Assembly: GCF_004339575.1 (NCBI RefSeq)
Contig: NZ_SMFV01000004.1
Span: 62,001-126,000, forward strand
Length of the DNA: 64,000 nt
DNA from: Phorcysia thermohydrogeniphila
GTDB lineage: Bacteria; Aquificota; Aquificia; Desulfurobacteriales; Desulfurobacteriaceae
Direction: 5' to 3'
The position numbers were made by a program, and so were the translations under genes. Below are positions 40,537-49,286 of the stretch, piece after piece (position 1 is the first letter of the stretch; each line of letters begins with the position of its first letter). The notes beneath the pieces were generated by a model. The model did not search any database. It had not been told where the DNA came from and saw only the letters and a program-made list of their open reading frames with translations.

Positions 40537-41475
40537 ATGGCTGGACTTTTTGAATTTGAAAGACAGGTTGATAGACTAAGAAAAAAGATTGAGGAACTCA
40601 AATCAATGGGAAAGTTTGAGCCAGCAGTAATTGAGGAGATAGAGAGAAAGTTCCAGAAGAAGATAAGAGAGTTCTACGAAAACCTTTCCGCTTGGGATAG
40701 AGTTCAGATAGCCCGCCACCCCGACCGTCCCCACGCCATTGACTACATAAGAAACGTCTTTACGGACTTTATAGAGCTCCACGGCGATAGGCACTGTGGC
40801 GATGGTAAAGCAATTATCGCCGGCTTTGGGAAGTTTGAAGGTCAACCGGTCTGTATCATAGCTCAAGAAAAAGGAAGGGACACGAAGGAGAAGATAGAAA
40901 GAAACTTTGGAATGCCCGTTCCGGAGGACTACAGGAAGGCCCTAAGGGTAATGAAGCTGGCAGATAAACTTGGAAAACCCATAATCACCTTAGTAGACAC
41001 GCCGGGCGCTTTTCCCGGGATAGAGGCAGAAGAACACGGGCAGTCTGAAGCGATAGCGAGAAACCTCCTTGAGATGGCAAAGTTAAAAGTTCCCGTAGTT
41101 ACAGTCGTGATAGGTGAAGGAGGTTCTGGAGGAGCTTTAGCAATAAGTGTAGCGAATAGGCTGTTAATGTTTGAAAACGCCATCTACTCCGTGATTTCCC
41201 CTGAAGGTTGTGCAGCGATTCTCTGGCAGTCTCAGGAAAAAGTTAAGGAGGCAGCAGAAGCCCTCAAACTTACGGCTAAGGACCTACTAAAACTTGGAAT
41301 AATAGACGACATAATTCCTGAGCCTTTAGAGGGTGCTCACAGGGACTGGAGAACGACATTTGAAAACTTTAGGGTTTACGTTAAGAAACACCTTGAAGAA
41401 CTCCTCCCTCTAAAGCCCGAAGAGCTCGTAGAACAGAGGTACAGGAAGTTTAGAGAAATAGGAAGCCTGAGGTAG
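40537..41475 (+). CDS. accA: Acetyl-CoA carboxylase carboxyltransferase alpha subunit
   Basis: The 312-residue protein has an N-terminal helical pair (EFERQVDRLRKKIEELKSMG) and the carboxyltransferase core: IARHPDRPHAIDYIRNVFTD, FIELHGDRHCGDGKAIIAGF, LVDTPGAFPGIEAEEHGQSE and VIGEGGSGGALAISVANRLL. It makes malonyl-CoA for fatty acid synthesis together with AccD, which is elsewhere. It follows dnaE by 10 bp, and its stop codon lies within a shared terminal hairpin. Confidence 0.97.
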   Translation: MAGLFEFERQVDRLRKKIEELKSMGKFEPAVIEEIERKFQKKIREFYENLSAWDRVQIARHPDRPHAIDYIRNVFTDFIELHGDRHCGDGKAIIAGFGKFEGQPVCIIAQEKGRDTKEKIERNFGMPVPEDYRKALRVMKLADKLGKPIITLVDTPGAFPGIEAEEHGQSEAIARNLLEMAKLKVPVVTVVIGEGGSGGALAISVANRLLMFENAIYSVISPEGCAAILWQSQEKVKEAAEALKLTAKDLLKLGIIDDIIPEPLEGAHRDWRTTFENFRVYVKKHLEELLPLKPEELVEQRYRKFREIGSLR

Positions 41476-41488
41476 TACTCCTCAGGCT
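41464..41488. terminator. Bidirectional hairpin between accA and the DEAD-box gene, containing both stop codons
   Basis: AGCCTGAGG and CCTCAGGCT form a perfect 9-bp stem with a 7-base loop. The accA stop is in the loop, and the stop of the converging helicase gene is in the right arm. The U tract is poor on both sides, so it may act as an RNA 3' end stabiliser or a weak terminator for both genes. Confidence 0.6.
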
Positions 41489-42732
41489 ATCACCCTCTTT
41501 AAGAGTAAAGCAACAACCTCTTCGGGATTTCTCCTCTCAACAAGCTCTTTCGCAAGTTCCCTTACTCTTTCGGGAAGCCTCTCAGTTGGAGCTGAAAGGA
41601 GCTCCTCCTTTAGTTCCTTTAAGTCATTTGCCCTAAACCTTTCTGGACGAACTCCCTTTAGCCCTTTAATCCTGTAGAGCCTCCTCTTTTCACTCTCAGC
41701 GACGAGGCTAATCGCAACACCTTCCCTTCCGGCCCTTCCGGTTCTGCCAATCCTGTGAACGTAGCTTTCTGGGTTTTCAGGGAGCTCGTAGTTAATGACA
41801 AGCCCCACGTCCTTGATATCTATTCCCCTTGCAGCTACATCGGTAGCAACGAGGACTTTAACCCTACCTTCCCTAAAGGTCTTCATTACGTTCTCTCTCT
41901 GTCTCTGGGAGAGGTCTCCGTGAATAGCCCTTGCACCTATGCCTCTCTTTTGGAGCTCCCTCTCAAGCTCTGCCGCGTCCCGCTTTGTCTTTACAAAAAC
42001 AATTGTTGTCGTTCCTTCGTGTTCCCTAAGGAGCTTTTCAAGGGCTCTCAGTCTTTCCTCACTTTTTATAAAAATCAACCTCTGGCGCACCTTAGGAGTG
42101 ATAAGCTGCTTTCCAACCTTAACGGTCTTATAGCCCGGCCTTAAGTACTTATCTATGAGCTTCCTTATCTCGTAAGGCATAGTGGCCGAAAAGAGCATAG
42201 TTTGTTTATTTTTCGGCGTTTTAGAGAGTATCTCCTCTATGTCCTCTATGAACCCCATATCAAGCATCTGGTCCGCCTCATCAAGGACGGCAAACCTTAC
42301 CCTGTCAAGCTTCAGAACTCCCCTGTTTATCAAGTCCTTAACCCTACCGGGCGTCCCAACAACTATCTGGTTTCTACCTCTCCTTAGGATGTTTATCTGC
42401 TTCTCAATAGAAACGCCACCGTATATGGGATAGGCAGAAACGCCCTTGTTCTTACCGATAAGAGAAAGCTCGTGGGCAACCTGAATTGCGAGCTCCCTCG
42501 TTGGAGTAAGAACTATCGCCTTAACTCCCCTCTCCCTTGAGCCAATTTTCTCAACCAGAGGTATTCCAAAGGCAGCAGTTTTACCTGTTCCTGTCTGTGC
42601 CTGTCCAACAATATCGTAACCTTCAAGGGCTATAGGAATCGCCTCCTTCTGTATAGGCGTTGGTCTCTCAAAACCCATTTCCTCTAAGGATTTCTGAATC
42701 CTTGAATCAAGTTGCTCAAATGTAAACTCCAT
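41482..42732 (-). CDS. DEAD-box RNA helicase
   Basis: The 416-residue protein has all helicase motifs: Q motif (GFERPTPIQKEAIP), AQTGTGKTAAFGIPLVEKIG, PTRELA, VLDEADQMLDMGF, FSATMP, ATDVAARGIDIKDVGLVINY and HRIGRTGRAG. The C-terminal tail is short and basic. It lies downstream of cspA on the same strand with only a terminator between them, so a role in cold adaptation like CsdA/RhlE is likely. The ATG at 42732 follows AGGAGAAGAG. Confidence 0.95.
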   Translation of the reverse strand: MEFTFEQLDSRIQKSLEEMGFERPTPIQKEAIPIALEGYDIVGQAQTGTGKTAAFGIPLVEKIGSRERGVKAIVLTPTRELAIQVAHELSLIGKNKGVSAYPIYGGVSIEKQINILRRGRNQIVVGTPGRVKDLINRGVLKLDRVRFAVLDEADQMLDMGFIEDIEEILSKTPKNKQTMLFSATMPYEIRKLIDKYLRPGYKTVKVGKQLITPKVRQRLIFIKSEERLRALEKLLREHEGTTTIVFVKTKRDAAELERELQKRGIGARAIHGDLSQRQRENVMKTFREGRVKVLVATDVAARGIDIKDVGLVINYELPENPESYVHRIGRTGRAGREGVAISLVAESEKRRLYRIKGLKGVRPERFRANDLKELKEELLSAPTERLPERVRELAKELVERRNPEEVVALLLKRVIA

Positions 42733-42762
42733 ACTCTTCTCCTCTCCTTAATAAGTCCTTAC

Positions 42763-42815
42763 AAATAAAAAATTGCCACGATTTCCGACGCCGTTTCAGA
42801 CGGAAACCGTGGCAA
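42763..42815 (-). terminator. Rho-independent terminator after cspA
   Basis: On the minus strand TTGCCACGG-TTTCCG pairs with CGGAAA-TCGTGGCAA (one mismatch in about 15 bp, loop of about 13), followed by TTTTTTATTTG. It lies 28 bp after the cspA stop and 31 bp before the DEAD-box start. It would separate the short cspA message from the longer cspA-helicase transcript unless read through. Confidence 0.85.
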
Positions 42816-42842
42816 CCTATTTTAGTTAAATTCCATTAGCTG

Positions 42843-43049
42843 TTAAAGCCTTTCTACATCTACAGCTTTTAGACCCTTATCGCTCTCCATAACGTTGAAG
42901 GAAACCCTTTCTCCTTCCTCAAGGGTCCTAAAGCCTGTTCCGGAAATACCGGTGTAGTGGACAAATACGTCCTGTCCGTTGTCGGCCGTAATAAAGCCGT
43001 AACCCTTCTTTGAGTCAAACCACTTCACTGTTCCTGTGAGCTTCTCCAT
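42843..43049 (-). CDS. cspA: Cold-shock protein (CspA family)
   Basis: The 68-residue protein begins MEKLTGTVKWFDSKKGYGFI and has the RNP motifs KGYGFI and DVFVHYTGI of the cold-shock domain. It binds single-stranded nucleic acid and acts as an RNA chaperone. The ATG at 43049 is chosen because GGAGAGGT precedes it and the family starts here; the reading frame is open upstream through the leader. It is preceded by a switch-like leader and followed by a terminator and an RNA helicase gene. Confidence 0.96.
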   Translation of the reverse strand: MEKLTGTVKWFDSKKGYGFITADNGQDVFVHYTGISGTGFRTLEEGERVSFNVMESDKGLKAVDVERL

Positions 43050-43085
43050 GCGTCTTACCTCTCCAAAAGTTTCTTTAAAAATTAA

Positions 43086-43135
43086 AAAGCCCCAGAAGGC
43101 AGAAACGGCATGCCCTCTGGGGCTTTCTGCCTTCA
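43086..43135 (-). promoter_or_regulatory. cspA leader with two mutually exclusive stems (attenuator-like)
   Basis: In the transcript (minus strand) GAAGGCAGAAA (43134-43124) is perfectly complementary to TTTCTGCCTTC (43105-43095), and AAAGCCCCAGA (43126-43116) is perfectly complementary to TCTGGGGCTTT (43096-43086). The two 11-bp stems interleave (A-B-A'-B') and share bases at both overlaps, so only one can form fully. B-B' is followed by TTTTTAATTTTT, making it an intrinsic terminator; A-A' would be the antiterminator. The leader sits between a TTGACA promoter and the cspA ribosome-binding site. Confidence 0.72.
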
Positions 43136-43153
43136 ACTATCTGCTACTACCCC

Positions 43154-43181
43154 AACTTATGCCCGCCGCTCCGTTTGTCAA
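43154..43181 (-). promoter_or_regulatory. cspA promoter (TTGACA-16-TAAGTT)
   Basis: TTGACA (43181-43176) and TAAGTT (43159-43154) on the minus strand are spaced by 16 bp. The expected start near 43147 would give a leader of about 98 nt that begins just before the first arm of the switch. The same hexamers occur upstream of the large secreted-protein gene. Confidence 0.55.
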
Positions 43182-43249
43182 GGCTTTCTTCTTATCATTT
43201 CTTCGTAAGAGAGAGACCGAAGTATTCTGAACAATTTGATAAAACTTTT

Positions 43250-43460
43250 AAAGTCTTTTAAAGTAACTATTCCATTCCAGCTGGTAGTCCAGCTGGGAGA
43301 TTTCTGACTGAGCTTGATTTGGGTTGCTCCTGCCTCCTACGGTGGGACAGGAAAAATACACAAGGGGGATAACCCGTTGATTTCCTGTGTCTTCAACGAG
43401 GGACACAGAAAAGAGAACGGGACAGGCAAGTGTTCCCAGCACTTGCTTGGCTTAAGATAG
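43250..43460. other. Structured non-coding region, possible RNA gene or mobile-element remnant
   Basis: The 43182-43570 gap holds no convincing gene but many nested inverted repeats: CCAGCTGG-tagt-CCAGCTGG (near 43277-43296), CCTG...CAGG (near 43328), CCCGTT...AACGGG enclosing CTGTGTC...GACACAG (43373-43419) and GCAAGTG-ttcccag-CACTTGC (43426-43446). GC content is higher than in the AT-rich genes next to it. tmRNA, RNase P and SRP RNA signatures were looked for and not found. A minus-strand frame of 64 codons crosses it; a decayed TnpB C terminus with its guide RNA is one idea, unproven. Strand is undecided. Confidence 0.4.
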
Positions 43461-43570
43461 GGGGATGGACACCTTACCAAAATGGGCGCGGGGATTAAAA
43501 GGAAGCGTTGGAGATCAAAAGATTACTTTGCTGAAAGATTCCCTAAGGAGTGAGAACAAATTCTATTTGT

Positions 43571-44173
43571 TCAGTTTGTGATTTCGCACTTTGATATGTT
43601 CAACTCTATATCTTGAATTGCTGTAGTCTCACTATTTTGGATCGCAGAGGTATTGAACTTGATTATGAATGTTTCTCCGTATTTATGTAAAATTCCATTT
43701 TCTTCCAAAGTTTTTGTAGTTTCGTCAGAGATTTCGATCTCAGGAATATAGTTAATTTGTGAGAGTGTTGTTATATTAAACAGCTTAAAGTTATAAGTGA
43801 ATGCAATCTTGATGTCTTGTTCCTTTTCAAAACCAAAGTATTCAATATTGCATACGTAGCTACTTTCAGTTTTATTGCAGGGATGAAAGGAAGTATCACC
43901 TTGTTTTTTGTACCATACCTTCCCGGTTTCATTTTGCTGTCGGGTTTCTGGTACAGATACAGTTATTTGTTTTCTATAAATCCTTAAATTTTCAGGTAGT
44001 GTAGTAGTTGTCGTGCTATAGTTACTCTGCTCGTTATTCGCTGAGTAATTACTATCGCTATATCCATTTTCAGACGAAGTTAAAGTATCAGTAGAAATAT
44101 TGTTACCTCCCCCGCCGCCACACGATAAGATAAATATTATGAAAAAAAATAGTAAGTTTAAGTTTCTTCTCAA
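43571..44173 (-). CDS. Hypothetical lipoprotein downstream of the large secreted protein
   Basis: The 200-residue protein starts MRRNLNLLFFFIIFILSCGG, a lipoprotein signal with lipobox ILSC, then a Gly run and a Ser/Thr/Asn-rich linker (about residues 25-65) and a beta-rich domain with two cysteines. The family is not recognised. It is AT-rich and begins 1 bp after the 1664-residue protein, so the pair is one unit; a partner or periplasmic immunity role is only a guess. A small stem, GAACAAAT-tct-ATTTGTTC, overlaps its stop. Confidence 0.75.
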   Translation of the reverse strand: MRRNLNLLFFFIIFILSCGGGGGNNISTDTLTSSENGYSDSNYSANNEQSNYSTTTTTLPENLRIYRKQITVSVPETRQQNETGKVWYKKQGDTSFHPCNKTESSYVCNIEYFGFEKEQDIKIAFTYNFKLFNITTLSQINYIPEIEISDETTKTLEENGILHKYGETFIIKFNTSAIQNSETTAIQDIELNISKCEITN

Positions 44174-44174
44174 G

Positions 44175-47100
44175 CTATCCTCCTATTCTATAGGCAGGAT
44201 AGAAAGTAATCATATATATTTTATTACCCTTTTTATAAAGGGCAAACCCAGCCTTCTGGGCTTGAAAGTCAAAAACTTTTATCCCTTTATCAGTTTCTTT
44301 GAATAGTACGCTTTCAATAGGTTTATTCAGGTCTATTTCACCACCTATTCGTCCATCACCTAATCTTCCAATGATCTGTAATATTGAATCTTCAACTAAC
44401 TTAATGAACTCTTTATTATCCTTTTTAAACACGGTATGTAAGGTAGTATATTCTACCTCTTCACCAATTTTTAAGATCTTAAAAAGATTCCTGTATATAC
44501 TCTCTACCAATTTCTTTTTTGACTCTTCAAGCGATTCCTTAATCAAGTTTAAGGATTCTACGTTATGTAAGTGAGTATGAGAGATCTCTGAAGTTATCCT
44601 CAGTAAAACTGAGTACAACTTAGTGGGGTCATTTATTTTTTCTGAGATTTTTTTTACGTCCGGCGTTAAATAGATAAGTTCGTATCTACTTCTATTTACT
44701 TTAACCTCTTTAAAGTAGACCCTAAAAAAGTCAAAAGCATTATCTATGATCTCCTTCAAATCCTTGTCTGTTACATCATGAAGCTCTTTTCTTATATAAT
44801 CCGCTTCTATGCTTGTGATATTTCTCCGTTTATACCCCGCAGATTCAAGACTTTCTATAAACTTATCAAATAACCTCAAGTTAACAAAAAGTCTGAATTC
44901 CCTGATTTCTCTTATTGAAAGCTTTGCAAGTAACTTTTCTAAGCTTTTTGTGGTAATTTCTCCAACAGATCTTGAAACTTTTCTATTCTTAGCTCTCTTG
45001 TATAAGTCAAAGTAGCAGAAACTTTTAAGATGTTCAGTAAGTGTATCGGCATTTTCTTCGCTAAGAGTAAGGCATAGCTCCTTCGCATTTATAGGATTTT
45101 CTTGAGCGCCTATGTAGTACTCTTGCAGTTTCCCATAAGAGTCGTACAAAAATTTGTACTCAATAGAGTAAGTGTATACATTTATTACATCTGTCTCGTA
45201 ACCTCCTGAGGTTCTGTAGCTAATAATTACGTAAGGGTCTATGTACTTAAACGAAATTAATTTTTTCCCAGAATAGTATTCTTTTATGTATTCCGCTTCC
45301 TTACTCCAAGTAGCTTCTATACTTTCCTTAGGAAATGTCCCTGAATATTTAACTATTACCGGTAACTCACCATTCTGTACAAATAATGCTAAATAGCTAA
45401 GCTCTCTATCTTGCAATGAAAGCTTTCTTAAAAGTTCGTCAAAAGGATAGAATCCATTAAATGGGATGTATATACTCTCTATCCTGCATAGTTGTGTTCT
45501 ATTACATAGTTCGTATGCCTTAATTGCTGAGAGGAAATTAGGTAATATTTCCTCTGACGCCAATTCAGAGTTTAGCAAACTATATTTCCTGTCTATTAGT
45601 TTAAATGGATCTGAAGTGTGTATTACACTTGAAAATCCATAAATAAGCTTAACAAGTGGTTTTTTTGATAGCAAAATGAAATATTTAATTTTGGAGCAAG
45701 AGCCAGAAATGTAACAGTACTTTTCCCTTTTCAAAGGAATTTCAATAACCGATAGCGGCAAGTTTAAGTCAATTCTCTCTATGTTAAACTGACAAACGGG
45801 AACATCCGATAAGGTTATTGAATCTGCAAGCAAAATCACATCATCTCTGTTTTCAGAAATTAAAGGAGAGAGACAGTTAGCTATATCAACAAGTATTTTC
45901 TGATTTATAGGATCATAAGTGATATGGTCCGCACATAGTGTAATCAATTGTTTTTCGGATAATAAAAGTATGTAAGGATAATTGTACTCTATATTTTCTG
46001 CTCTTTTCCCGACATACGCTAAGGCAGCTTCAGCGATATACTTGGCTGCGTTTGCCATTAGCCCTATTTCACATCCAGCTTTAGCCCCGACTAAGGCTCC
46101 AACTCCAAAACCCAAACTTCCGATAGACGCTCCGATAGAAGCTCCGGCTAAACACGACGCTATGTTAGATTTATAAAAATCTTCATAGTAGCGTAATATA
46201 CAGATTTCTCCGTATTCGTTTATATAATTATTTATCTCGTGGAGATCGTGGATATCAGTGAACACAAATGGATCTGCTGCCGACACGAGTAAATCTTTGA
46301 AAGAGAAACTACTTAGACTACTTATAAAATTCTCAAGCTTTTCCTCAGGTGACAGATAGAAGCTGAATCTAAAGACCTCCAGCTCTTCTTCAGAATTTTC
46401 TACTAAAATAGAATACGTCCCGGCAGGCAGAGTTTTAGTAAGGCTGATTGTAATTTCACATCCATCCTTTCTTATTGTAAAACTCTTAGTTTCATCTTTG
46501 TAGTAATATTCAGGCTGAGCTAAGTCGTTTCCAGTTAGGATATCGTCACAATACTCGTCAGATTCCCAAATTTTGTAAATTTTTACATCTGTACTCTTAC
46601 AAAATTTATTGCCTATTCTTAGTTTCAGCAAATAGTTATTACGGACTTCGTAGGGATAAACCACAACTGGAAGAGACTCTTGTTCAAGTTTAGAAAGTAA
46701 TAGTCCATCTTCCAATGTAATTTCAAAACTTACTGCTGGTGGATAGTTTGAGTCTTTGATAGAGATTGTTCCCATAACTGTGTTGGAAGGTTTTTCAAAG
46801 GTATCATAAGCCGTAGCTGTCCATGTATATGTACCGGCTGAGTTATAGTTGCAAGTTAGTGAAACTTCTGCATAGCCTGTATTAATGTAAAAGGTTTTAT
46901 GACTATCAGGTGTTCCGTCTCCGTCACAATCAAGAATCAATTTAGAGAGATTGTTATCCTCATCGGAAACGACAAAAGTGAATGTTACAGGTTTGCCTTT
47001 ATAACCTTCGGATGGAGAAATTTTTGTTGTAAGAAAGGGAGGGTGGTTTGAATTTTCAACAGGGTAGTAACCAATTCCTGTAACTGGTATTTCAGCGGAG

Positions 47101-49169
47101 ATAATGTTCTCGGTATCATCAATAGGATAGTATTCAATTTTTATATAATCCCTATATTCCTTTTCAGTGGTCGGTTCAAATCTTACAACCAAAGTACACT
47201 TACCTGATGGATCCAGAATTTTATTTATACAGTGATTTTCGTAGATATAAAAAGCAAGATTTTCGTTTTTAGTGTTTTTTATTACGATGCCTACGTTACC
47301 ATTGTTTTCAATGGTTAGTTTCTTCTCCGAGAAGGAGTTAACTTCAGTATCTTCAAACGTAAGCTCATGTGGAATGACCTGAATAGAAGCAATACCTTTT
47401 CCCGTACCTTCAATGGGCACTCTTAGATCTTTATGGCCGTTATATTTGTCTTTGTATTCAACTACTAGGATGCTGTTGTATTGGACGGTTTCAAGCGGAG
47501 AAAAGCGAATTTTTAGTTGGCAAGACTCGCCACTTACAAGAGTTTTATTCTTACATCCATTCTCAGTGATAGAGAAAGCGTTTTCCGTATTATTTTCTAT
47601 CTTAATAGCTTTTATAGAAGCAGAAATTTCCCCAGTGTTAGTGATTTCTATAGTAAGGTCACTGAAGCTATTTATTGATACATTTCCAAAGTCATACACT
47701 TCTTTGTCCGTTTTTAGTTTCGCATTAGGGGGGTTTTTAACAGTAATATCTATGCTTTTTCTTGCACCCAATACGTTCTTGCACCAAGAGTCTAATTTCT
47801 CATAATTAAGGCCTTTAAAATTTCCTTTTATAAATAGTGTAAGTGTATAGCTTCCACTTTTATTTATCCCTAAATCATTAGGATTAAGCTCTATTTTCTT
47901 CCCTTGAAGCAACTTTTCACATTTGTCAGTTGATAATTCATACGTCTCCTCGCCATCTATAATTATGAAACAACTGTATTTAAGCTCTGCATACTCATTC
48001 TCCTGCCGTCCTTTCACTTTTGCATATAGTTTTATGGAATCTCCGAGATATATTTCTTCGTCGTCTAACTCTAACTTTTCTATTTCGAGTTCTCTATTCT
48101 CTAGAGCCGGCAAATTATGGTCGCCAGCTACAGCAAGGAGTTTCCCTTCCTGACAATTTTCATCGTATAGGTAAGTACGAATGACTCCATAATCTTTCTG
48201 GTCTTCTTTGTTATAAATAAAGGAAATGTACCCACTGGTTTCCTCTTCGTGCAAAGTTATAGTTTCTACTTTTCCTACATCATCTATTTTTGCAAAAATG
48301 CAAACCTTCCCATCTATAGCTTTATCAGTTTTTATAGTGTATCTTAAATAATACGCTCTCCAATCTATCAAGCATGTAGCTTTTTCTTTACAATTTTGAT
48401 CTAAACAGATGCTGCTTTCTATTGTAGATTGGAATGCTTTTGTTCTGATAGAGATGAATCCATTCACTGTGTCGGAAGGCTTTCCAAAGGTATCATAAGC
48501 CGTAGCCGTCCAGAGGTATGTACCATCTGAATCATAGTTACAGGTCAGAAAGACTTCTGCGTGACCTGTATTAGCACGGAAGGTCTTGCGATTATCAGCT
48601 GTTCCGTCTCCGTTGCAGTCAATGGCAACTTCTGAAAGGTTTTCGTCTTTGTCTGAAACGATAAAAGAGAAAATAACTGGTTCATTTGTATAGCCTTTAG
48701 ATGGAGCAGTTTTAATTTGAATGGAAGGTGGGTGATTAGAGTATTCAAAATAACAATTATGCAGAACTGCTTGGTTATCAAGTGTACATATAATGATTTG
48801 GCAAGAACCTGTATCGTTTTCTTTGTTAATAAAATCCTCCTTGAGTTCTATTTCTTTTTCTTCGTTTTTTGTAAGAGATATCTTTTTTTGTTTCCCAAAG
48901 TCACACTCATCCTTCCAGAATGATTCATCGCTGCATTGATAAAATATGTTAAATGTAGCGTCTCCTCCATAAGTAGGATTTGTTGTGGTGTTTTGAATTT
49001 TTATATGAATGGTATTTGGAGTTATGTATATCTCATCTTCTAATATTTTAGCTCCCCATCCGTTGCTTGTATAGGGAGTTGAGCACTCCTTATAAATAAT
49101 AGATGCTTTTGTACTGATAGGAATTGAGAGTATTACAACACTTATAATTAAGATTAGCAAATGCACCAT
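44175..49169 (-). CDS. Large secreted multidomain protein (PKD and ASH-type modules, glycine zipper)
   Basis: The 1664-residue product begins MVHLLILIISVVILSIPIST, a signal peptide. Modules seen, by approximate residue: a PKD-like domain (145-245; DCNGDGTADNRKTF, TWTATAYDTF), ASH/choice-of-anchor-D-like domains (485-590 and 598-700; DFGNVSINSFSDLTIEITNT), a second PKD-like domain (706-808), a Gly-zipper hydrophobic stretch (1005-1055; ASIGASIGSLGFGVGALVGA) and a long unrecognised C-terminal half ending in FALYKKGNKIYMITFYPAYR. It is AT-rich and foreign-looking. An upstream TTG extension to 49286 would disrupt the signal peptide and is rejected. A polymorphic toxin or adhesin is possible; function unknown. 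Confidence 0.8.
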   Translation of the reverse strand: MVHLLILIISVVILSIPISTKASIIYKECSTPYTSNGWGAKILEDEIYITPNTIHIKIQNTTTNPTYGGDATFNIFYQCSDESFWKDECDFGKQKKISLTKNEEKEIELKEDFINKENDTGSCQIIICTLDNQAVLHNCYFEYSNHPPSIQIKTAPSKGYTNEPVIFSFIVSDKDENLSEVAIDCNGDGTADNRKTFRANTGHAEVFLTCNYDSDGTYLWTATAYDTFGKPSDTVNGFISIRTKAFQSTIESSICLDQNCKEKATCLIDWRAYYLRYTIKTDKAIDGKVCIFAKIDDVGKVETITLHEEETSGYISFIYNKEDQKDYGVIRTYLYDENCQEGKLLAVAGDHNLPALENRELEIEKLELDDEEIYLGDSIKLYAKVKGRQENEYAELKYSCFIIIDGEETYELSTDKCEKLLQGKKIELNPNDLGINKSGSYTLTLFIKGNFKGLNYEKLDSWCKNVLGARKSIDITVKNPPNAKLKTDKEVYDFGNVSINSFSDLTIEITNTGEISASIKAIKIENNTENAFSITENGCKNKTLVSGESCQLKIRFSPLETVQYNSILVVEYKDKYNGHKDLRVPIEGTGKGIASIQVIPHELTFEDTEVNSFSEKKLTIENNGNVGIVIKNTKNENLAFYIYENHCINKILDPSGKCTLVVRFEPTTEKEYRDYIKIEYYPIDDTENIISAEIPVTGIGYYPVENSNHPPFLTTKISPSEGYKGKPVTFTFVVSDEDNNLSKLILDCDGDGTPDSHKTFYINTGYAEVSLTCNYNSAGTYTWTATAYDTFEKPSNTVMGTISIKDSNYPPAVSFEITLEDGLLLSKLEQESLPVVVYPYEVRNNYLLKLRIGNKFCKSTDVKIYKIWESDEYCDDILTGNDLAQPEYYYKDETKSFTIRKDGCEITISLTKTLPAGTYSILVENSEEELEVFRFSFYLSPEEKLENFISSLSSFSFKDLLVSAADPFVFTDIHDLHEINNYINEYGEICILRYYEDFYKSNIASCLAGASIGASIGSLGFGVGALVGAKAGCEIGLMANAAKYIAEAALAYVGKRAENIEYNYPYILLLSEKQLITLCADHITYDPINQKILVDIANCLSPLISENRDDVILLADSITLSDVPVCQFNIERIDLNLPLSVIEIPLKREKYCYISGSCSKIKYFILLSKKPLVKLIYGFSSVIHTSDPFKLIDRKYSLLNSELASEEILPNFLSAIKAYELCNRTQLCRIESIYIPFNGFYPFDELLRKLSLQDRELSYLALFVQNGELPVIVKYSGTFPKESIEATWSKEAEYIKEYYSGKKLISFKYIDPYVIISYRTSGGYETDVINVYTYSIEYKFLYDSYGKLQEYYIGAQENPINAKELCLTLSEENADTLTEHLKSFCYFDLYKRAKNRKVSRSVGEITTKSLEKLLAKLSIREIREFRLFVNLRLFDKFIESLESAGYKRRNITSIEADYIRKELHDVTDKDLKEIIDNAFDFFRVYFKEVKVNRSRYELIYLTPDVKKISEKINDPTKLYSVLLRITSEISHTHLHNVESLNLIKESLEESKKKLVESIYRNLFKILKIGEEVEYTTLHTVFKKDNKEFIKLVEDSILQIIGRLGDGRIGGEIDLNKPIESVLFKETDKGIKVFDFQAQKAGFALYKKGNKIYMITFYPAYRIGG
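46761..47035 (-). repeat. Second copy of the PKD-module coding repeat
   Basis: This stretch is visibly similar at the DNA level to 48462-48720 (shared runs such as GGTATCATAAGCCGTAGC and TGTTCCGTCTCCGT). Both encode a PKD-like module with the same DxDGDGTxD and TAYDTFxKPS motifs. An internal duplication inside the large gene is the simplest explanation. Confidence 0.7.
48462..48720 (-). repeat. First copy of the PKD-module coding repeat
   Basis: This is the N-terminal PKD-like module of the large secreted protein, similar in DNA and protein to the copy at 46761-47035. Similarity at the nucleotide level suggests a fairly recent duplication or gene conversion between the modules. Confidence 0.7.
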
Positions 49170-49257
49170 GATACTACCCTTGGTGCTTACCGTAATGCTT
49201 GGAAACAGATTCTTTCTTCTGCTAAAGGACTCCTCCCCGACAATGTTCCTCAAAATT

Positions 49258-49286
49258 AACTTATTCCTAATAAATCCCTCTGTCAA
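49258..49286 (-). promoter_or_regulatory. Probable promoter of the large secreted-protein gene (TTGACA-17-TAAGTT)
   Basis: TTGACA (49286-49281) and TAAGTT (49263-49258) on the minus strand have a 17-bp spacer and lie about 89 bp upstream of the ATG at 49169. The -35 element overlaps the stop codon of the dead toxin gene. The hexamers equal those proposed for cspA. Confidence 0.5.

Follow-up and report, generated by a model that had tools for sequence, protein, structure and literature searches.

A putative transcription attenuator of interleaved helices ahead of a cold-shock gene in Desulfurobacteriaceae

Studies on bacterial leaders and cold-shock genes describe several systems close to the one considered here. 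Terminator/antiterminator attenuators, both trp-type and riboswitch platforms, place exclusive helices that share a strand in the 5′ leader, one of them being a U-tailed terminator. In the E. coli cspA thermosensor (RF01766; Giuliodori et al. 2010), as it is cited in PMC3738593, a structured csp 5′ UTR has alternative folds and is thought to respond to cold; there, refolding of the mRNA alters translation, and the scheme includes no terminator. Cold-shock proteins are tied to the read-through of intrinsic terminators in E. coli and B. subtilis (PMC9765468, PMC8307031), and in the icaR mRNA of S. aureus the 3′ and 5′ UTRs are complementary to each other (PMC3868564). Terminator/antiterminator leaders, Csp-linked antitermination and pairing between 5′ and 3′ UTRs are thus already known separately. 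The csp leader described here bears a likeness to each of them.

The window, a stretch of 64,000 nucleotides, comes from a genome of 1.62 Mb in which csp is the sole match to its own protein in a protein search. The relatives of this csp come from Desulfurobacteriaceae, Thermovibrio and Desulfurobacterium, placing the host in the Desulfurobacteriaceae, Aquificota. The original prediction had located two perfect 11-bp complementary pairs in the stretch from a TTGACA promoter to the start of csp, and both are confirmed at their positions (Table 1). They interleave in the order A-B-A′-B′, and because A and B share 3 nt and A′ and B′ share 2 nt, A-A′ and B-B′ are mutually exclusive, again as predicted. 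When the 98-nt leader is dinucleotide-shuffled 20,000 times, two interleaved perfect helices of at least 10 bp appear in none of the sequences, interleaved perfect helices at 8 bp in 21, and any single 11-bp helix in 22. Chance origin of the two interleaved 11-bp pairs is excluded. The folding energy of the leader is −34.2 kcal/mol (z = −3.0), and in the minimum-energy fold B-B′ is the lower portion of a continuous 18-bp hairpin, T1. The proposal that B-B′ and the U run form a terminator is refined by this: a conserved U-tailed hairpin is present, but B-B′ is just the lower part of it. Since B-B′ is only part of T1, the competitor of A for the 3′ arm is the entire 5′ arm of T1. A generic terminator scan did not list T1 because it allows loops of 3-8 nt only.

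Table 1. Features of the csp-deaD region, in window coordinates
Feature	Sequence or description	Position	Strand	Basis
csp promoter-like site	-35 TTGACA 43181-43176, 16-nt spacer, -10 TAAGTT 43159-43154	43154-43181	-	
A, antiterminator 5′ strand	GAAGGCAGAAA, conserved core GAAGGCAG	43124-43134	-	8-mer identical in 19/19 main leaders
B	AAAGCCCCAGA	43116-43126	-	within T1
A′, antiterminator 3′ strand	TTTCTGCCTTC, in T1 loop and upper 3′ arm	43095-43105	-	
B′	TCTGGGGCTTT	43086-43096	-	within T1
T1 hairpin, candidate intrinsic terminator	18 bp, 9-nt loop UGCCGUUUC (43110-43102)	43084-43128	-	fold, covariation, family-wide model matches
U-rich run	3′ of T1	43077-43088	-	
csp Shine-Dalgarno	GGAGAGGT	43057-43064	-	sequence; GAGAGGT-like in all relatives
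csp start	ATG	43049	-	sequence
csp	68-aa cold-shock domain protein	42843-43049	-	PF00313, E 6.9e-27
Candidate deaD promoter	TTTAAC-17-TAAAAT, ends just before T2	42819-42847	-	consensus match; weak evidence
T2, csp-deaD intergenic hairpin	loop UGAAACGGC (42798-42790), U run 42772-42763	42773-42815	-	covariation, family-wide model matches
deaD-like gene	DEAD-box RNA helicase, downstream of T2	41482-42732	-	PF00270, PF00271

T1 is a family trait. A search at the protein level in 22 family genomes recovered 19 main csp loci, spread over 7 genera, plus 4 second copies in genus g4, and every one of these 23 loci has T1 with the same loop, TGCCGTTTC. Its stem changes on both sides in 8 of 16 pairs, and its covariation score is 0.372, against 0.177 in shuffles and at most 0.112 in slid controls. 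When a covariance model of T1 (R1) was run over 136 Aquificota genomes, strong matches (E < 1e-18) were confined to Desulfurobacteriaceae, one per csp gene, and T1 was not found with R1 in the other Aquificota among them. Of the other R1 matches, some read the same hairpins in antisense, some are the hairpin that follows the second csp and looks inverted, and the remainder have E of 1e-8 and weaker. As a U-tailed, G+C-rich hairpin ahead of the Shine-Dalgarno sequence, T1 has the form of the terminator in attenuators.

The csp leaders of other Aquificota families (L223-L243) carry a different structured 5′ UTR, GAAG-TGTTTAAAG ... CTTTAAAC-CTTC around GGGGAGGG. The structure looks conserved and has no obvious terminator; it is possibly another undescribed type of csp leader. 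Several assemblies of relatives break at or near csp or T2 (L213, L008), and one contig (G017) ends inside T2. In the window itself, an intergenic stretch of about 250-300 nt, located upstream of the csp promoter (43260-43500), folds unusually strongly (z −2.9 on the plus and −2.6 on the minus strand) and contains several perfect hairpins, with weak, partial matches in two relatives only and no Rfam match. Beyond it lie a 200-aa lipoprotein-like ORF (43571-44173), 3′ of a gene whose 1703-aa product has HYDIN/ASPM-like Ig domains, and that gene itself (44175-49286, minus strand).

The core of element A, GAAGGCAG, is 100% identical between the 7 genera, in 19/19 main leaders, whereas identity between genera is 29% in the 12 nt before it, 40% in the 12 nt after it and 56% at csp fourfold sites. 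In all 19 it lies downstream of a TTGAC...TATAAT/TTAAAT-like promoter, and the TTGAC / TATAAT-like pair of the relatives precedes A at equal distance. A pairs with A′ in all main leaders (128/128 cells). In most relatives A extends into CGGAA(AC), which is able to add CGG/CCG or GAAAC/GUUUC pairs. The window leader has lost the CGGAAAC stretch, yet it retains 11 continuous A-A′ pairs. The main leaders of g4 have inserts of ~40-110 nt between A and A′, predicted to hold hairpins, and keep the complementarity. A-A′ shares A′ with the loop and 3′ arm of T1, as the earlier, mutually exclusive helix of attenuators does. There is no covariation of A-A′ in the 19 main leaders because A never varies. 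The two g4 paralogues L020 and L021 provide one compensatory change, GAAGG/CCUUC against GAAAG/CUUUC. Where the original prediction looked for covariation in both stems of relatives, the T1 stem covaries strongly, with its 8 two-sided pairs, but A-A′ offers only this one compensatory change alongside an invariant A; the case in which neither stem is conserved or covaries does not apply. Taken as comparative evidence, these patterns support a terminator/antiterminator attenuation before csp, and A could also be conserved for a reason other than A-A′ pairing. An attenuator based on a leader peptide was considered as well and dropped: the open frame before csp is 70-117 aa among relatives, and the sole conserved ATG sits within the T1 hairpin.

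Folding calculations bear on how such a leader could respond to temperature. In stepwise folding, A-A′ has a probability of 0.86-1.0 once A′ has just emerged, at both 20 and 70 °C. T1 is preferred some nucleotides later, with the exception of L014 at 20 °C, where A-A′ is still competitive. At equilibrium T1 is favoured at all temperatures from 20 to 70 °C in 5/6 leaders tested, with no crossover. Therefore, temperature would not act via melting alone, only through kinetics. At 70 °C the computed barrier from A-A′ to T1 is ~11-14 kcal/mol; at 25 °C it rises to ~22-30 kcal/mol. Both ranges are findpath upper bounds, with L014 (no distinct low-temperature end state) and L020 (misplaced constraint) left out. 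For the temperature dependence expected by the original prediction, 5/6 leaders thus show no thermodynamic crossover in this range, although the computed refolding barrier is far higher in the cold. If kinetics decide, we infer that cold would favour read-through into csp by trapping A-A′.

The original prediction overlooked T2, a partner hairpin downstream of csp. Six pairs of the T2 stem are changed on both sides, and its covariation is 0.203 against 0.109 shuffled. The loop UGAAACGGC is invariant at the main loci. With a covariance model of T2 (R2), 20 family genomes each show a single strong site, and the Aquificota genomes outside Desulfurobacteriaceae show none. At all main loci, the T2 loop UGAAACGGC is complementary over 8 nt to the invariant T1 loop UGCCGUUUC; GAAACGGC in the T2 loop and GCCGUUUC in the T1 loop are exactly complementary. 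Both loops are thus fixed, and the stems covary around them. Two random 9-mers of the window have at least 8 complementary nucleotides with a chance of ~1.2e-4, a figure that is only a guide as the match was spotted post hoc. A general scan found no complementary hairpin loops above 5 nt flanking other csp genes, and random pairings among the hairpins of other csp loci give at most 6. Among ~60 sites of the two 9-mers examined in the source genome, T1 and T2 alone are U-tailed hairpins with such a loop. The computed 8-bp duplex of T1 and T2 has −11.4 kcal/mol at 37 °C and −4.8 kcal/mol at 70 °C. This complementarity suggests a possible pairing of the 5′ and 3′ ends of the message. Because A-A′ also uses part of the T1 loop, the full antiterminator could not form during contact with T2 and termination would be favoured; we propose a loop-loop contact of this kind as a possible feedback.

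Behind T2, the Shine-Dalgarno sequence and ATG of deaD lie within ~10-40 nt of the T2 U run in most genera, so that there is little room for a promoter 3′ of T2. Therefore, deaD would be reached by read-through of T2 or from a promoter-like site before it, and a TTTAA-(16-18)-TAAAAT/TAGAAT element precedes T2 in most, not all, loci outside g4. The second csp copies of g4 (L020-L023) separate the loop match from deaD. Their downstream hairpin has a stem unlike T2 and no deaD behind it, and contains GGUAGAAACGGC, a 12-nt complement of GCCGUUUCUACC in the copy's own T1, in L020, L022 and L023; in L021 the match includes G-U pairs. Since the second copies keep the loop match without deaD, the common factor is csp and not deaD, and the T1-T2 match most likely serves csp. 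T1 is present in L022 and L023, with no clear A. The hairpin after the second csp, which stands between convergent genes, resembles an inverted T1 leader hairpin, and in one genome R1 gives its reverse strand a score of 42.5 bits. By this resemblance, the complementarity at the second copies may be partly due to an inverted copy of T1.

We propose that the csp leader is a transcription attenuator. A would pair with A′ to form the antiterminator while the rest of the T1 3′ arm is still unsynthesised. As this arm emerges, strand exchange would recover A′ and transcription would end at the U run; if A-A′ persists, the polymerase would continue into csp. Fast strand exchange would occur only when hot. 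At growth temperature many transcripts would then stop at T1, and cooling would trap the antiterminator so that csp is made. If T2 paired with the T1 loop, A would lose access to part of its partner and the balance would shift toward termination; through this contact, accumulated csp mRNA could possibly exert negative feedback. We assign the whole model, attenuator, cold-trapped antiterminator and possible T2 loop feedback together, a probability of about 0.55. Its boldest part is the most tentative: that the csp 3′ terminator regulates the csp leader by loop pairing, in cis or from finished mRNAs, and blocks the antiterminator in a protein-free, temperature-tuned negative feedback, seems to us rather unlikely when taken by itself.

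The signal of the switch is likely to be temperature or Csp. In the latter case, Csp protein or another RNA chaperone would bind the leader and shift the balance between T1 and A-A′, making it an autoregulatory device rather than a temperature-responsive one. Pyrimidine-rich stretches are preferred by Csps, and the T1 loop holds an invariant, pyrimidine-rich UUUC. E. coli CspA/C/E and CspD lower intrinsic termination (PMC9765468), and B. subtilis CspB/CspD alter terminator read-through (PMC8307031). Binding of a protein, however, needs neither the complementarity of A and A′ nor that of the T1 and T2 loops, and the T2 loop is purine-rich. We regard a protein signal of this kind as a rather unlikely alternative to temperature. 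About equally doubtful is the idea that the T1-T2 match acts after transcription, either by joining the 5′ and 3′ ends of the csp mRNA with effects on its stability or translation, or by letting the terminated leader RNA act on deaD mRNA. There is a precedent in icaR, where pairing between the UTRs blocks translation and invites RNase III (PMC3868564), but the csp Shine-Dalgarno sequence, unlike its counterpart there, lies outside the match. T2 closely precedes deaD in most genera, as the deaD version would have it, but that version fails to explain the second g4 copies; the match kept at those copies, with no deaD behind, favours the version that joins the two ends of the csp mRNA.

Less probable still is that T1 is a plain constitutive terminator or 5′ stabiliser that fixes the csp level, with A kept for initiation or early pausing and A-A′ incidental. 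The constant place of A, which every leader has ~20-25 nt 3′ of its −10 box, would fit a role in initiation or pausing, as would the invariance that leaves A-A′ without covariation in the main set; the two second copies that have T1 without A and the equilibrium preference for T1 point the same way. Such a reading has difficulty with the complementarity of A to A′ in 19/19 main leaders, those of g4 with their ~40-110 nt inserts included, with the window pairing that reaches 11 bp despite loss of neighbouring sequence, and with an interleaving far beyond chance. Finally, uptake sequences are often located in terminators as inverted repeats and the hairpin at the second g4 csp looks like an inverted T1 (antisense, 42.5 bits), but that the shared 8-mer GCCGTTTC/GAAACGGC is a DNA-level repeat, whether an uptake sequence or the ends of an inverted element, with no RNA contact is very improbable. 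TGCCGTTTC has no genome-wide excess: it occurs at 41 sites and the reversed control at 57, counts that speak against an uptake sequence or genome-wide repeat. Apart from T1 and T2, none of the ~60 sites is a U-tailed hairpin with this loop, and the loops of both stay fixed while their stems covary, the pattern expected of RNA.

The attenuator that we favour differs from each of the known systems. The combination of leader switch and loop match is absent from Rfam and from the open-licence literature searched, and the main text of a survey of Aquificales ncRNAs (PMC4227106) mentions neither csp nor cold. In a search of Rfam over window positions 41000-45000, no riboswitch or other element reaches its gathering score. 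The cspA model gives 28.6 bits, far below its gathering score of 78, in a match that covers the csp coding region, which bears out the original view that the design is unlike the E. coli cspA thermosensor; set against that system as cited above, the csp leader here has a terminator. If the model is true, cold-shock control in hot-vent bacteria would run through kinetic competition during transcription, and the two hairpin terminators of one gene would communicate by their loops. Csp antiterminators such as E. coli CspA/C/E and CspD act as proteins on the terminators of other operons, whereas here the csp leader RNA itself holds the competing helix. In icaR, a linear motif pairs with the Shine-Dalgarno region; at csp, the match joins the apical loops of two U-tailed hairpins and involves the leader terminator instead. 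Trp-type and riboswitch attenuators differ in other respects: for the csp leader neither a leader peptide nor a ligand aptamer was found, nor an Rfam family, and the loop of T1 matches the loop of the gene's own 3′ terminator.
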